DNA of 64,000 bases from Anaerolineae bacterium. Lineage in GTDB: Bacteria; Chloroflexota; Anaerolineae; Aggregatilineales; Phototrophicaceae. A program made the translations under genes and the position numbers. Positions within the stretch are counted from its first letter, which is position 1. Every line of letters starts with the position of its first letter. Positions 2,001-61,989 of this stretch are shown here, one piece after another. A model generated the notes under the pieces. It was not told the origin of the DNA. It saw only the letters and a program-made list of their open reading frames with translations, and ran no database searches. The stretch lies in NCBI GenBank assembly GCA_016789005.1, contig JAEURA010000057.1, positions 1 through 64,000 on the forward strand, read 5' to 3'.

Positions 2001-2164
2001 TCCATCCTCTTTCTACGCTCCACCAGATGCCGGAACAGGCATCAGTGCGACTTATTTACGGATGCTCTCTGACGAGATTGTACGTGCAAAACGCTGTTCA
2101 GGTTGCTGCCGACTTCGTACAGGTCGTCAGCGTAGGTCTGGCGTCAGCCAGGCGAGTAGAAGTG

Positions 2165-6189
<4,025 letters not shown>

Positions 6190-56320: not shown

Positions 56321-56349
56321 TTGTCGCCTTAGAGGCGCTGGGCTATAAT
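56321..56349 (+). promoter_or_regulatory. Strong promoter of the FHA-ftsW-pbp operon, leaderless
   Basis: TTGTCG (56321-56326), 17-base spacer, perfect TATAAT (56344-56349). The expected start of transcription, about 56355-56357, coincides with the first base of ATG 56357. An inverted repeat CGCCT-TAG-AGGCG (56325-56337) overlaps the -35 and spacer and could be an operator. Confidence 0.65.
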
Positions 56350-56356
56350 GCGCCAT

Positions 56357-57133
56357 ATGGGCAACTACCATTTCACACGGCTCGAAGCCAATCTGGAGCG
56401 GTTGATCGAAGGGGCATTCACGCAGTTGTTCGGCAGGGCGCTCCGCCCCCACGACATCGCTGTGCGCCTCTCACGCGCGCTGGAAAGTGCGATCATACCC
56501 TCTGGCGACAGCGATCCCCGCCCCATCGCGCCCGATCACTTCCTCATTCGACTGAACCACGATGTCTATGATCATCTGTTGATCCATCAGCCACGACTGA
56601 CCGAGATACTGACTCAGCACATGATTTCGCTGGCGGGTGCGGCGGGGTGTCGCATGCGCGCGGCGCCGATAGTCATCATCGGCGGGGATCATGCGCTCAA
56701 TCCAGGCGATATTCAGATTGATGCCCGGCACCAGAACGAGGCGCAGAGTACCACCCAGGTGCTCGATGCCGGACGGCTGGAACGTGAGATATCTCGCCTT
56801 CCGCTCAACCCGGTCCTGGTCATCAACGGAGAACAGACTACAGCGCTGACCAAGGCGATCATCAACATCGGCAGAGGACGGGACAACGAGATTGTCCTGA
56901 ACGATCCGTTCACCTCGCGCAGGCATGCGCAGCTGCGCTTGCGCCACGGCGCATTCTTCGTCTTCGACGCCAACAGCCAGGGCGGCATCAAAGTTAACGA
57001 TGTTGCGGTTCGTGAACATCGCCTCCAGCCAGGGGATGTCATACGGATCGGCAAGACGCAGCTTCTTTACCTCGAAGACTCTCCTCCCGGTGAGCAGCAA
57101 ACCGAGATGGTCGCGCCACCACCTGAATCATGA
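56357..57133 (+). CDS. FhaA-like protein: DUF3662 domain plus FHA domain
   Basis: This cytoplasmic protein of about 258 residues opens MGNYHFTRLEANLERLIEGA, the DUF3662 domain of actinobacterial and Chloroflexota FhaA (residues 1-115), and ends in an FHA domain (about 160-245: INIGRGRDNEIVLNDPFTSR, then HAQLRLRHG), which binds phosphothreonine peptides. In actinobacteria FhaA regulates cell wall synthesis with the PknB kinase. No kinase or phosphatase gene is in view. The start is ATG 56357, directly after the promoter; ATG 56348 would overlap the -10. It overlaps fhaB in ATGA. Confidence 0.85.
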   Translation: MGNYHFTRLEANLERLIEGAFTQLFGRALRPHDIAVRLSRALESAIIPSGDSDPRPIAPDHFLIRLNHDVYDHLLIHQPRLTEILTQHMISLAGAAGCRMRAAPIVIIGGDHALNPGDIQIDARHQNEAQSTTQVLDAGRLEREISRLPLNPVLVINGEQTTALTKAIINIGRGRDNEIVLNDPFTSRRHAQLRLRHGAFFVFDANSQGGIKVNDVAVREHRLQPGDVIRIGKTQLLYLEDSPPGEQQTEMVAPPPES

Positions 57134-57585
57134 CCCCGACGCCTCCCGATACCCAGCTTGTTCTTTTGCTCTTCCGGCTAATCTCCGGTGCGCTGTTGAT
57201 GGGCATCCTGGCGGTGTTGTTCATTGCCCTCTGGCGTGATTTCCGCAGCGCGGTCGAGAAGACCTCGGTTCAGCGGCGTATTTATGGAAAGCTGGTCGAA
57301 GTCGTTGAAAATGATGACGGTTATGAAGAGACGGCAGTTTCGCATCCGCTGCTGCCCCTCACGAGTATTGGGCGCGCACCGACCAACACCATCGCCCTGG
57401 ATGATGATTTCGCCAGTGGTGAGCACGCGCTCCTTGCGCTCCGCGAAGGACAGTGGTGGCTGGAAGATCGCAAGAGTCGAAACGGGACTACAATCAATGG
57501 GCTGCCGATCGGTGATTCTGTCATTGTCACCGACGGCGATGTGATCGGGGTTGGCAACCGAAGATTTCGAATCCACCTGGAGTAG
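57130..57585 (+). CDS. FhaB-like membrane-anchored FHA protein
   Basis: The 151-residue protein has one N-terminal membrane segment (LVLLLFRLISGALLMGILAVLFIALW) and a cytoplasmic FHA domain: TSIGRAPTNTIALDD, SGEHALLALREGQWWLEDRKSR, and NGTTINGLPI, with the Arg, Ser and Asn that bind phosphothreonine. It corresponds to FhaB/FipA-type proteins near ftsW/rodA and pbp genes. It starts inside the fhaA stop (ATGA) and is followed after six bases by mtnP. Confidence 0.87.
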   Translation: MTPTPPDTQLVLLLFRLISGALLMGILAVLFIALWRDFRSAVEKTSVQRRIYGKLVEVVENDDGYEETAVSHPLLPLTSIGRAPTNTIALDDDFASGEHALLALREGQWWLEDRKSRNGTTINGLPIGDSVIVTDGDVIGVGNRRFRIHLE

Positions 57586-57591
57586 AGGCGT

Positions 57592-58452
57592 ATGGAAAGC
57601 GTCACCATCGGCGTAATCGGCGGTTCGGGTCTGTACAAAATGCCGGATCTGCGCGATATCGAGCAGTACAACGTGGTCACTCCTTTCGGCAACCCCAGCG
57701 CACCGGTCATCGTCGGAACGCTGCGCGGGAAGCGAATCGCCTTCATCCCCCGGCATGGTATCGGGCACATCTTCACGCCAACGACGGTTCCATATCGCGC
57801 CAACATCTTCGCCCTGAAAATGCTTGGCGTGCAGCGGATCATCGGCGTCAATGCCTGCGGTTCCCTGCGCGAGGATCACCGACCAGGCGACATCGTCATC
57901 CCTGACCAGCTCTTCGATCACACGACCCAGGATCGCGGACGTTCTTTCTTCGATACCGGACTGGTCGCCCATGTCGGCGTCGCCGATCCGTTTTGCACCG
58001 CGCTCAGCGAACTGGCGGTCCAGGCGGTGCGTGCCGCAGGCGGCACGGCGCATCAAGGCGGTACGTCCATAACCATCGAGGGACCTCGCTTCAGCACGCG
58101 CGGTGAGAGCAACATCTACCGCCAGTGGGGGTGCAGCATCATCGGCATGACGACCTGCCCTGAAGCGTTCCTCGCCCGTGAGGCGGAGATGTGCTACGTC
58201 TCCATGTCACACGTGACCGATTACGATGTCTGGCATCAGGAGCCGGTCAACGTCGAGATGGTCGTGCAGACTCTTCACCGAAATCTGACCCTGGCGCAGC
58301 AGGCACTCGCGAATCTGGTACGCTACATCGAGGAAGATGAAGACTGCGGCTGCCATCATGCGCTGGATACGGCAATCATGACTGACCGCGAAAAGCTGTC
58401 GAAGGAAGCTGTACAGCGTCTCGGACCGATTCTCGAACGCTTTATTCCTTGA
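57592..58452 (+). CDS. mtnP: S-methyl-5'-thioadenosine phosphorylase (or purine phosphorylase)
   Basis: It splits MTA with phosphate to adenine and methylthioribose-1-phosphate, the substrate of the mtnA product. The 286-residue protein has IGVIGGSGLYKMPDLRD, the phosphate-binding IPRHGIGHIFTPTTVPYRAN, NACGSLREDHRPGD and EGPRFSTRGESNIYRQWG with the base/ribose residues. Its place between the FHA genes and ftsW is unusual for a metabolic gene. Its stop overlaps the TTG start of ftsW (TTGA). Substrate choice between MTA and inosine/guanosine is not settled by eye, although mtnA in the same window favours MTA. Confidence 0.88.
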   Translation: MESVTIGVIGGSGLYKMPDLRDIEQYNVVTPFGNPSAPVIVGTLRGKRIAFIPRHGIGHIFTPTTVPYRANIFALKMLGVQRIIGVNACGSLREDHRPGDIVIPDQLFDHTTQDRGRSFFDTGLVAHVGVADPFCTALSELAVQAVRAAGGTAHQGGTSITIEGPRFSTRGESNIYRQWGCSIIGMTTCPEAFLAREAEMCYVSMSHVTDYDVWHQEPVNVEMVVQTLHRNLTLAQQALANLVRYIEEDEDCGCHHALDTAIMTDREKLSKEAVQRLGPILERFIP

Positions 58453-59783
58453 GAAAGCGCGCGGCGATGCGGGCAGGGTCACTGGAAGCAGATTCCTTTG
58501 AGAAGCGGCGCTGGCATCAAAATCGTCTGGAACCTTTGCTGCTTGCGCTAAGCTTCGTATTCCTGGCACTCAACGCAGCAGCCCTGTCTATCGCGCAACC
58601 AGAACGCGACTCCTCTGTCTGGTTGGTCGTTGCGGTCTGGCTGGTATGTGCCGTCGCCGGAAGCACTCTGCTGCGTCGAACGCTCACGCACTGCGACCCG
58701 TTCATCTTCCCAGTAACGATGTTCCTTTCCGGGTGGGGACTGATCATCATCGAGCGAGTCGCGCCGAATTTCGCCGCGCGCCAGACGATCTGGCTGGCGC
58801 TGGCTGTGATCCTGATGATCGCCACAGCCGGTTTTCCACGACTCATCGTCCTGCTGCGCCAATACCGCTACACCCTCCTCTTCGGAGGCTTGGCGCTGCT
58901 CGTCGCGACGATCCGTTTTGGCAGCAATCCCTCCGGCATCTCTGGCGCGCCGGCGTTGTGGCTGAGCCTGGGCGATTTCTATTTCCAGCCGTCTGAACCT
59001 CTGAAAATCATGCTGGTGGTCTTCCTCGCCAGCTACCTCGCCGAGCAGTACGCCGTCGTGCGGGTCGAGCATGCGGCGTTCGGCAAGACACCCACGCCCC
59101 GCGTGGTCGGTCCGGTACTGCTGATGTGGGGACTGTCTGTGATTGTGCTGGTCTGGCAGCGTGATCTCGGCACAGCGGCGATCTTTTTCCTGGTCTTCCT
59201 TACCCTGGTCTACGTCGCCAGTGGTCAGCTCCGACTGCTAATCGGCGGCAGCATCCTGGCGCTCGCTGCAGGCGCCGCAGCCTACATCCTTTTTGGAGTC
59301 GTGCGCCTGCGGGTCGATGCCTGGCTCAACCCCTGGCTGGAAGCAGATGGACGGGCTTATCAGATTGTGCAAAGCCTGATCGCCGTCGCATCCGGAGGGG
59401 TCTTCGGGCAGGGAATCGGGCAAGGTTCACCGACCTACATCCCGGTCATTCATTCCGATTTCATCTTCGCTGCGCTCGCCGAAGAATGGGGGCTGGTTGG
59501 AATTGTCACGGCGCTGTTCTGCTTCGCGTTAATTTGCATGCGCGGGCTGCGGAATACCGTCGAACTGCGCCCTTTCCCGGCGCTGCTCGGCGTGGGTCTC
59601 AGCGCGCTGCTGGCGATCCAGGGGTTTCTGATCATCGGCGGAGTCCTCAAAGTCGTCCCGCTGACCGGAGTGACTGTCCCGTTCATGAGCTACGGCGGAA
59701 GCTCTCTGATCACCAACTTTGTGCTGATCGGCTTGATGCTTAGACTTTCGGCAGGAGAACAGGCGCTTGCTTTTCCAGCGTGA
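58449..59783 (+). CDS. FtsW/RodA/SpoVE family peptidoglycan glycosyltransferase
   Basis: This 444-residue SEDS polymerase has about ten membrane segments. The signature is present: GDFYFQPSEPLKIMLVVFLA, VLVWQRDLGTAAIFFLVF, and the C-terminal PFMSYGGSSLITNFVLIGLM. It would polymerise lipid II, normally with a class B PBP as partner; here the next gene encodes a PBP-like protein without the usual catalytic residues. Start TTG 58449 shares TTGA with mtnP, as thiP does with thiB; ATG 58467 (with GAGAAAG before it) is the alternative. It overlaps the pbp start by 17 bases. Confidence 0.92.
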   Translation: MRKRAAMRAGSLEADSFEKRRWHQNRLEPLLLALSFVFLALNAAALSIAQPERDSSVWLVVAVWLVCAVAGSTLLRRTLTHCDPFIFPVTMFLSGWGLIIIERVAPNFAARQTIWLALAVILMIATAGFPRLIVLLRQYRYTLLFGGLALLVATIRFGSNPSGISGAPALWLSLGDFYFQPSEPLKIMLVVFLASYLAEQYAVVRVEHAAFGKTPTPRVVGPVLLMWGLSVIVLVWQRDLGTAAIFFLVFLTLVYVASGQLRLLIGGSILALAAGAAAYILFGVVRLRVDAWLNPWLEADGRAYQIVQSLIAVASGGVFGQGIGQGSPTYIPVIHSDFIFAALAEEWGLVGIVTALFCFALICMRGLRNTVELRPFPALLGVGLSALLAIQGFLIIGGVLKVVPLTGVTVPFMSYGGSSLITNFVLIGLMLRLSAGEQALAFPA

Positions 59784-61239
59784 GACGAAGAGACTCCTGG
59801 GCGTACTGCTGATGCTTTTTGCCACGCTTGCGCTCTCAGCCGCCTACTGGGTGGTCGATGGCGCAGCGACCTTGTTGGGACGCCCCGATAATCCGCGCCT
59901 GCTCGAAGCGGCGGCAGCAGTGCAGCGCGGCAGCATCTATGACCGCAATGGACATGTTCTCGTCAGTTCGTCCCCGGCAAGGTCGGGAGTCGGTGCGCCG
60001 ATGCAGCGCCAGTATCACGTTCCCGCTGCCTACAGCGTCCTCGGCTACTACAGTCTGCGCTACGGCGCGAGCGGCGTTGAGCTTGCCTTCGATAGTCATC
60101 TGACCGGGTCTGACCGTCCGATCACCATAGCAGAAGCGCTGGAGGGCGAATTGCTGCATCACCGGCCCGCCGGCGGCGACATCATGCTGACGCTGGACGC
60201 CGACATCCAGCAGCGATTGGCAGAGCGACTGAGGGGGTTCGCCGGTGCAGGAGTAGTGATCGATGTGCCTTCTGGCGATATCCTGGCGGCGGTCAGTCTG
60301 CCTACCTACGATCCAAACACGCTCGATACCGATTGGGATCAGCTGGTGTCACAATCGGGCGATCCGTTCTTCAACCGCGTCGTGCAGGGGCGATACCAGC
60401 CCGGAAGCGCTCTGCAAACACCTCTGATGGCTGCCGCCAGCCTCATTGAGTTCCCAGCAGACCGACGGTTTGAGTCCAGCACACTTCCGTTCGAACTGGC
60501 AGGCATATCGAGGGATGGCGGCACTGCCCAGAACGTTGTGTTGGAGTGTGCCGTTCGACTGCCTGAGCGCGCTCTGACGCTTCAGGAAGCCTACATCTAT
60601 GCCTGTCCATCCCCCTTTGCAGCCTTTGCCGAGGAAATCGGCGACACGGTGATCACCGCGATGATGGAGACTTTCCACGTCGAGGATACGCCAAGCCTGC
60701 CAGGTTTTCCGACAGCCATCGTCGAACCCCCGGCGGCTGAAAGCGCACCGTTTGCCGCCGATTCTTCCATAATCGCCGATGCACTGGGTCAGGGCGACAT
60801 CGTCGTGAGTCCCCTGATGATGGCAGTGATCAGCGCCGGCATCGTCAACGATGGCAATGCACCACCGCCTGCCCTGCTCTATGCGATGCGAACCCGCAGC
60901 GACGACAGCGATGGAAGCTGGGAACGCCTGGTCCAGACGACCCCAACGTTTCCGATAGCGACAATCAGCACCGCACGACTGCTGCAGGACTACATGCGGG
61001 AAGCCGTCATCAACGGCGCCGCCCAGAACGCCGGGCGTCCAGGGATTGACGTTGGAGGACACGCGGCGCTGGCGCATGCGGGCGACGAAACCCACGCCTG
61101 GTTCATCGGGTTCACAACACTTCAGAACGGACGCGGTGTTGCCATCGCCATCGTCATCGAGGACAATGCCGATCCGGGACTAGCGGCGGACATCGGCGGC
61201 GACGTTTTGCAGACCGCTCACGACAGGCAGAGCAGCTAG
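59767..61239 (+). CDS. Class B PBP-like protein with degenerate active site
   Basis: This 490-residue membrane-anchored protein has the transpeptidase layout: QRGSIYDRNGHVLVSS, a helper region, and the penicillin-binding domain (about 155-475). The framework around each catalytic motif is kept, but the residues are not. GRYQPGSALQTPL aligns with the SxxK box, so S214 is kept and Lys is Gln217. The SxN box region AYIYACPSPFAAFAEE reads ACP (279-281). The KTG box region DVGGHAALAHAG reads HAA (432-434). HAWFIGF (443-449) is intact. So it should not cross-link or bind beta-lactams normally. It starts at TTG 59767 with GGAG 9 bases upstream, inside ftsW. It may be a structural activator of FtsW/RodA (inference). 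Confidence 0.85.
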   Translation: MLFQRETKRLLGVLLMLFATLALSAAYWVVDGAATLLGRPDNPRLLEAAAAVQRGSIYDRNGHVLVSSSPARSGVGAPMQRQYHVPAAYSVLGYYSLRYGASGVELAFDSHLTGSDRPITIAEALEGELLHHRPAGGDIMLTLDADIQQRLAERLRGFAGAGVVIDVPSGDILAAVSLPTYDPNTLDTDWDQLVSQSGDPFFNRVVQGRYQPGSALQTPLMAAASLIEFPADRRFESSTLPFELAGISRDGGTAQNVVLECAVRLPERALTLQEAYIYACPSPFAAFAEEIGDTVITAMMETFHVEDTPSLPGFPTAIVEPPAAESAPFAADSSIIADALGQGDIVVSPLMMAVISAGIVNDGNAPPPALLYAMRTRSDDSDGSWERLVQTTPTFPIATISTARLLQDYMREAVINGAAQNAGRPGIDVGGHAALAHAGDETHAWFIGFTTLQNGRGVAIAIVIEDNADPGLAADIGGDVLQTAHDRQSS

Positions 61240-61913
61240 CCGCCCTCCCATAGACGGCGGCGCAGACCGAGCTTCTTCGACCACTTCGCCGTCTTACTGT
61301 TGGCATGCACCCAGACCGGGCTGTAACGCTGATCAGCCTGCGCGCTGCCCAGCGCGGCGATGAAGGCGACAGGACCGTCAAACGCCTCCATGAGCAGCGT
61401 GGCGCGCCCATATTCCGGTCGCGAATGCGCGTCTGATCCAACCGTCCGCATCAGCCCGTACCGCTGGGCAAACTGCGCTGCTTTGAGGTTGTCTTCGGTG
61501 AAGATACAACGCGAGTTGAACGTTTCGATGGCATCTACCCGGTCAATGATCTTCAGCAGCTCTGCTTCCTGCCACGCGCCTTTACGCAATCGGTCAAACG
61601 GATGCGAGACGCTGATCACCGCTCCCTGATCGCGCAGACGTCTGAGGGTCTCGTCGGGACTCAACCCTTCGGGAATGGACTCCTGCATGAAATAACCCAG
61701 CAGTTCGCCCTGATTCGTCATGATTTCCTCACCAACGATGATCCGCTCTGGCGCGAGCTGCTGCATTTGCAGCGCCCCTTCTGCAGTATTGTGATCGGTG
61801 ATGGCGAGCCGGTCGATTCCGCGCTGATCCATGAGCTGGAGAATCGTTTCGAAGCGAACAATGCAGTCCTTCGACCACAACGTATGAGTGTGGAGTTCAA
61901 CACGCCACTTCAC
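61236..61913 (-). CDS. PHP-domain phosphoesterase
   Basis: This protein of about 225 residues is a PHP metal-dependent hydrolase: VELHTHTLWSKDC, AITDHNTAEG, VGEEIMT, VSHPFDR and GSDAHSRPE carry the His and acidic metal ligands. Relatives act on 3',5'-bisphosphates or RNA 5' ends, or as histidinol phosphatases. GTG 61913 is chosen: AAGGA lies seven bases before it and the minus-strand promoter (61965-61957) leaves only starts below about 61950; ATG 61937 is possible, ATG 61988 is upstream of the promoter. Its stop interlocks with that of the pbp gene in CTAG. Confidence 0.87.
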   Translation of the reverse strand: MKWRVELHTHTLWSKDCIVRFETILQLMDQRGIDRLAITDHNTAEGALQMQQLAPERIIVGEEIMTNQGELLGYFMQESIPEGLSPDETLRRLRDQGAVISVSHPFDRLRKGAWQEAELLKIIDRVDAIETFNSRCIFTEDNLKAAQFAQRYGLMRTVGSDAHSRPEYGRATLLMEAFDGPVAFIAALGSAQADQRYSPVWVHANSKTAKWSKKLGLRRRLWEGG

Positions 61914-61956
61914 AGATTTTTCCTTGTACTTGCACATCCCAGGCGAAACCTCTGTC

Positions 61957-61965
61957 ATTCTAGCA
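61957..61965 (-). promoter_or_regulatory. Extended -10 promoter of the PHP gene
   Basis: On the minus strand the sequence reads TG-C-TAGAAT. Transcription would start near 61950, ruling out an ATG start at 61988. Confidence 0.5.
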
Positions 61966-61989
61966 GGCGAAGGGGCAGGAACAAGCATG

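Follow-up and report, generated by a model that had tools for sequence, protein, structure and literature searches.

Can a class B PBP that has lost the catalytic motifs of its transpeptidase domain still serve the SEDS polymerase beside which it is encoded, and if so, which enzymes cross-link the new strands? SEDS polymerases are antibiotic targets, and the extent to which their polymerisation has to go hand in hand with cross-linking by the cognate class B PBP is an open question. It is raised in a natural setting by a gene near the end of a 64,000-nucleotide stretch of DNA from an Anaerolineae bacterium, hereafter the window.

A PbpA-type fold with its catalytic residues absent

The gene (59767–61239, + strand) starts with a TTG codon, shares 17 bases at its 5′ end with the 3′ end of the SEDS gene upstream, and encodes a 490-residue class B PBP-like protein, here termed pseudo-PbpA, which was characterized from its open reading frame, Pfam matches, alignment and an AF2 model. 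Its N-terminal membrane helix (residues about 8–36; 59788–59874), delineated by conservation and by an AF2 helix spanning residues 2–37, bears conserved F18, Y27 and W28. It is followed by the juxtamembrane motif R39-P-D-N-P-R44 (59881–59898), which stands out by its conservation and is retained in the truncated stubs described below. Then come the PbpA dimerisation/pedestal domain PF21922 (residues 54–125; 59926–60141) and a transpeptidase fold, evident from both Pfam (PF00905, 80 bits) and the AF2 model, whose catalytic residues are absent (residues 160–469; 60244–61173). Pfam matched both domains in all 74 members of the pseudo-PBP family. By sequence, the closest relative in the PDB is Mycobacterium tuberculosis PbpA (3un7, E 5e-28). 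The AF2 model, based on a 74-sequence alignment and with a mean pLDDT of 92.4, finds its nearest folds among PbpA-type PBPs and similar actinobacterial proteins at Z scores of about 41–42 (3lo7, Z 41.9, rmsd 2.3 over 388; 4mnr, Z 42.2, rmsd 2.5 over 390). The PBP2 (mrdA) equivalog TIGR03423 is not reached, the protein scoring 144.6 bits against a cut-off of 455. Pseudo-PbpA is homologous to the PbpA-type class B PBPs and is best read as a pseudoenzyme derived from one of them.

The register of the former motifs was read both from the alignment to M. tuberculosis PbpA and from the AF2 model, and the two agree with the placement given in a preliminary description of the locus. The former SxxK, S214-A-L-Q217 (60406–60417), lies in the segment YQPGSALQ, opposite YPPGSTFK of the mycobacterial protein, and S214 occupies the canonical position at the N-terminus of helix 213–226. 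The former SxN, A279-C280-P281 (60601–60609), falls in the loop joining helices 272–277 and 281–291, again the canonical position, with ACPSPF opposite SCNTAF. The former KTG, H432-A-A (61060–61068), sits on strand 429–438 just where KTG would be expected, GGHAALA standing opposite the KTG strand. The loss of all three transpeptidase motifs, as originally claimed, is thus real: SxxK, SxN and K(T/S)G are each absent, and going by its residues the protein would not be classed as a DD-transpeptidase. Since a relative at 86% identity (L040) has the same residues at these sites, and the order-level sequences are all motif-free, chance and sequencing error are excluded. A second cysteine, the invariant C261 (60547–60549), might form a disulfide with C280; the intact homologue L129 also has a cysteine near the C261 position.

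Extent of the motif loss and selection on the family

A search of the window genome together with 100 relatives, extending to order level, yielded 85 homologues that were read together with the window protein, a few of them partial and one (L094) frame-broken. None of these 86 keeps any of the three motifs. Most members lack the SxxK serine as well, GxxQ being the commonest replacement; the former SxN reads xCP in 86 of 86, its Cys and Pro invariant; and His most commonly takes the place of the KTG lysine. At the level of the class Anaerolineae, 43 of 47 non-FtsI homologues are motif-free; L129, L136 and L143 are intact, and L114 is a doubtful case. Elsewhere in the phylum, outside this class, each of the 29 readable homologues possesses all three motifs. 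The intact PBP of L129 sits in the same MTAP–SEDS–PBP gene order. On a PBP tree computed without the motif columns, the active and dead states are separated by one change; one change also suffices on the SEDS tree, although, depending on where its root falls, several losses would fit too. The proposal that the protein might define a pseudo-PBP subfamily is borne out, the same loss extending through an order and through most of the class.

Two sequences call for separate comment. L114 (family f13), which keeps KTG only, was considered as an intermediate of the loss and set aside: the middle of its PBP gene (L114:2628–3767, − strand) is replaced by a low-complexity repeat of the GELEELGEL type, an insertion or possibly an assembly artefact. 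The broken frame of L094, from genome G027, represents either a pseudogene or a sequencing error.

The pseudo-PBP is under purifying selection. Across nine close pairs its dN/dS ranges from 0.08 to 0.38, eight of the nine falling at 0.08–0.20 and mostly near 0.1; the partner SEDS yields 0.04–0.19, and the pseudo-PBP evolves faster than its own SEDS in seven of the nine. Conservation peaks at the juxtamembrane R39-x-D-N-P-R44, at residues 160–212 and at the old SxxK helix; N42 and R44 do not vary across 74 homologues, and C261 and C280 are also among the invariant residues. The old active-site surface displays a conserved consensus of its own, composed of YQPGGxLQ, CPxPF and GHxA.

The partner polymerase, fusion and erosion

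The overlapping upstream gene (58449–59783, + strand) encodes a SEDS-family polymerase of the FtsW/RodA superfamily (PF01098), as assigned by Pfam and tree. The preliminary description spoke of an ftsW operon, a label that has to be given up. The protein does not reach the ftsW equivalog TIGR02614 (234 bits vs. a cut-off of 337.5), and the window genome encodes three SEDS proteins, a dcw-type on contig C62, a RodA-type on C245 and the present partner, which belongs to a third subfamily separate from the genome's FtsW-like and RodA-like proteins. The retention of a dead PBP beside a SEDS gene, by contrast, stands: the two are linked in an operon, and this linkage is widely conserved. Upstream on the same strand, Pfam and synteny identify as further operon members an FhaA-like protein (FhaA_N + FHA; 56348–57133), an FhaB-like membrane protein with an FHA domain (57130–57585) and an MTAP/PNP-type phosphorylase (57592–58452), and the order FhaA–FhaB–MTAP–SEDS–pseudoPBP is widely conserved among loci. 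In family f7, the SEDS and pseudo-PBP genes are both present and non-adjacent. Across the order and in much of the class, the phosphorylase gene separates the FHA genes from the SEDS gene, and a PHP-domain phosphoesterase gene (61236–61988, − strand) is convergent after the pseudo-PBP gene in the window, a similar gene occurring in the loci of genus g19.

The partner's catalytic aspartate, D337 (59457–59459), aligns with D297 of Escherichia coli FtsW and D262 of RodA. The residues Asp297, Gln147, Asp197, Gly199, Arg246, Gly371 and Gly381, numbered as in E. coli FtsW, are retained in 115 of 115 SEDS proteins of pseudo-PBP loci; cavity residues conserved along with Asp297 are ones whose mutation is dominant negative in FtsW (PMC8765783). 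Replacement of P196, Y242, R243 and R137 in the partner SEDS might be taken to mean that SEDS catalysis has been lost as well. This was rejected, as the same substitutions occur in SEDS beside intact PbpA and do not track the dead PBP.

The SEDS and the pseudo-PBP are encoded as a single open reading frame in 30 loci, comprising 29 of the 47 class-level loci plus L074 of the order, and the PBP and SEDS trees call for at least 7–8 changes between the fused and separate states. No SEDS fusion was present among the intact PBP homologues checked. An AF2 model of one natural fusion, L112, has good overall confidence (pLDDT 89.6, pTM 0.81) and contains a PBP half whose best match is again PbpA. These fusions argue for physical contact between the SEDS and the pseudo-PBP. 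The two are also absent together: eight genomes without the pseudo-PBP (G025, G030, G045, G056, G058, G074, G093 and G096), five of which are 90% complete or more, are also without the third SEDS, their remaining SEDS proteins being only 30–36% identical.

Elsewhere the pseudo-PBP is eroded. Families f11, f32, f22 and f49 lack the central part of the transpeptidase domain or have it in a form that can no longer be recognised; in genus g19 all that is left is a stub of 56–59 residues, a membrane helix that closes with RxDNPR and carries a short tail; and in G088, from a different family, a separate truncation has likewise kept the membrane helix and RxDNPR. This series points to the helix and RxDNPR as the part relevant to the SEDS. 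The SEDS proteins of g19 (L171, L173, L175) have themselves lost part of ECL2, including the equivalents of W138 and Q147, and sit on a long branch of the SEDS tree (1.18), so that the g19 lineage may be losing the system, its stub reflecting decay of the pair rather than sufficiency of the helix.

Cross-linking and the role of the dead PBP

The preliminary description had called for a search for a full PBP2 or PBP3 elsewhere in the genome, and both an intact FtsI-type and an intact PBP2-type protein were found. Judged by alignment to E. coli PBP2, the genome's four other class B PBPs are all intact: the FtsI-type (contig C62; SIFK/SLN/KTG), the PBP2-type (C245; SIWK/SCD/KTG, comparable to the SAD of E. 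coli PBP2) and two of MecA_N type (L002 on C2, SVMK/SCN/KTG; L003 on C139, STFK/SCN/KTG). Three class A PBPs (C44, C26 and C331) each carry SxxK, SxN and KTG. Because these FtsI-type, PBP2-type, MecA_N-type and class A proteins are intact, the organism retains its main transpeptidases, and the dead class B PBP affects one of three SEDS–class B PBP pairs in the window genome. The MecA_N-type proteins, present in almost every one of the Anaerolineae tested but rare elsewhere in the phylum (3 of 23 genomes of other classes), were examined as a possible correlate of the death of PbpA. They also occur in genomes without the pair and in four of the five genomes of families f37 and f47, whose PbpA is intact, and are thus a permissive background at most.

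The pseudo-PBP is probably a non-catalytic activator or scaffold subunit of the third SEDS polymerase. Such a function has precedents in parts of active class B PBPs, whose membrane helix and pedestal regulate SEDS proteins (PMC10449877, PMC6207328, PMC10257715): in vitro, the membrane helix of PBP2 is by itself able to stimulate polymerisation by RodA (PMC10449877), and opening of PBP2 activates RodA (PMC10257715). By analogy, the pseudo-PBP and the third SEDS would form a membrane complex, or a single fused polypeptide in other families, in which the membrane helix, the RxDNPR segment and the pedestal domain would attach to the SEDS and govern its activity much as the corresponding PBP2 parts do on RodA. 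The former transpeptidase domain would stay folded, serving as a lever or docking platform while making no cross-links, and strands from the third SEDS would be cross-linked by the cell's intact PBPs. We infer complex formation, activation and the identity of the cross-linker alike; the best reading is that activation and cross-linking are separated here, which suggests that evolution has parted the helper role of a class B PBP from its chemistry. Counting against it, a pure scaffold has no obvious need of a newly conserved active-site consensus, and the decay of the g19 SEDS, the faster evolution of the pseudo-PBP and the non-adjacency in f7 also weigh on the other side.

That consensus could instead point to a sensor or receptor role for the dead domain, whose cleft would bind stem peptides, strands not yet cross-linked or some other ligand, its ligand state being reported to the SEDS or to the FHA proteins. 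The above-average conservation of the SxxK helix and the KTG strand, the intact fold seen in the AF2 model and the fold comparison, and the FHA proteins of the operon, which suggest phospho-signalling, are congruent with such a role. Yet several class families have deleted the middle of the domain, SxN region included, and kept the tie to the SEDS, such that the cleft is not always needed, and a sensor appears unlikely. Still less probable is that selection on the pair is weakening and that it survives as a relic heading for loss. Its absence from eight genomes, the stubs in g19 and G088, the broken frame in G027 and the degenerate g19 SEDS would all be expected of a relic, but full-length frames persist through most of the order at 31–50% identity, with dN/dS mostly near 0.1 and with repeated fusion to the SEDS. 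It is very improbable that the protein retains enzymatic activity through a newly evolved active site built, for example, on S214 without its lysine, or on C280 as the nucleophile. S214 is present in the window protein and C280 is invariant in the order; however, most order members have another residue, usually Gly, in place of the serine, and the cysteine is missing from class families f11 and f32 and already present in intact homologues (SCN), while the nearby C261 fits a structural disulfide. Least credible is the original suggestion that a LysM–YkuD L,D-transpeptidase (2027–3349) takes over cross-linking for the third SEDS, for although its YkuD and LysM domains were confirmed, it lies 56 kb away, unlinked to the operon, and with seven intact PBPs in the genome it is unnecessary to explain cross-linking.

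In mycobacteria, PbpA is encoded with FhaA, FhaB, PstP, RodA, PknA and PknB. Pseudo-PbpA shares with this protein the PF21922 + PF00905 architecture, its closest sequence and fold, and the FHA–FHA–SEDS–PBP setting. The mycobacterial protein, however, is catalytically intact and acylated by beta-lactams (3upn, 3upo, 3upp), whereas all motifs are gone from pseudo-PbpA; and unlike the mycobacterial locus, the window has an MTAP gene between FhaB and SEDS and no kinase gene after the PBP. The RodA–PBP2 pairs of E. coli and Thermus thermophilus and the FtsW–FtsI pair likewise combine a SEDS with a class B PBP, but one that is an active transpeptidase. Roles of class B PBPs beyond catalysis are known from laboratory mutants: in Bacillus subtilis, dead PBP2B (S309A) sustains division given PBP3 (PMC5656894), and in Staphylococcus aureus the PBP1 protein is required for division apart from its transpeptidase activity, its S314A variant needing compensating mutations (PMC7617827). 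Unlike in these mutants, the dead state of the pseudo-PBP is natural and extends over most of a class. Examples of natural SEDS–PBP fusion frames also exist (PMC10449877) and are likewise single polypeptides, but in the Anaerolineae fusions the PBP half is dead and the arrangement recurs in many families. A literature search, with most subscription journals outside it, found no report of a natural pseudo-class B PBP family this broad; SEDS–PBP fusions and engineered dead class B PBPs are already known, and a natural family of dead ones would appear not to have been described.

Somewhat more tentatively, and with the case falling a little short of even, the class as a whole may harbour a natural SEDS synthase whose class B PBP has been reduced to a pure activator, repeatedly fused to its polymerase and trimmed, in two lineages to a remnant of membrane helix and RxDNPR. 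If so, evolution would have mapped the minimal SEDS-activating part of a class B PBP, and a SEDS would be able to work without a transpeptidase of its own. A pseudo-PBP with these residues should be blind to beta-lactams, and a natural, conserved SEDS–class B PBP pair with a dead PBP makes the polymerase-helper and cross-linking roles separately testable.
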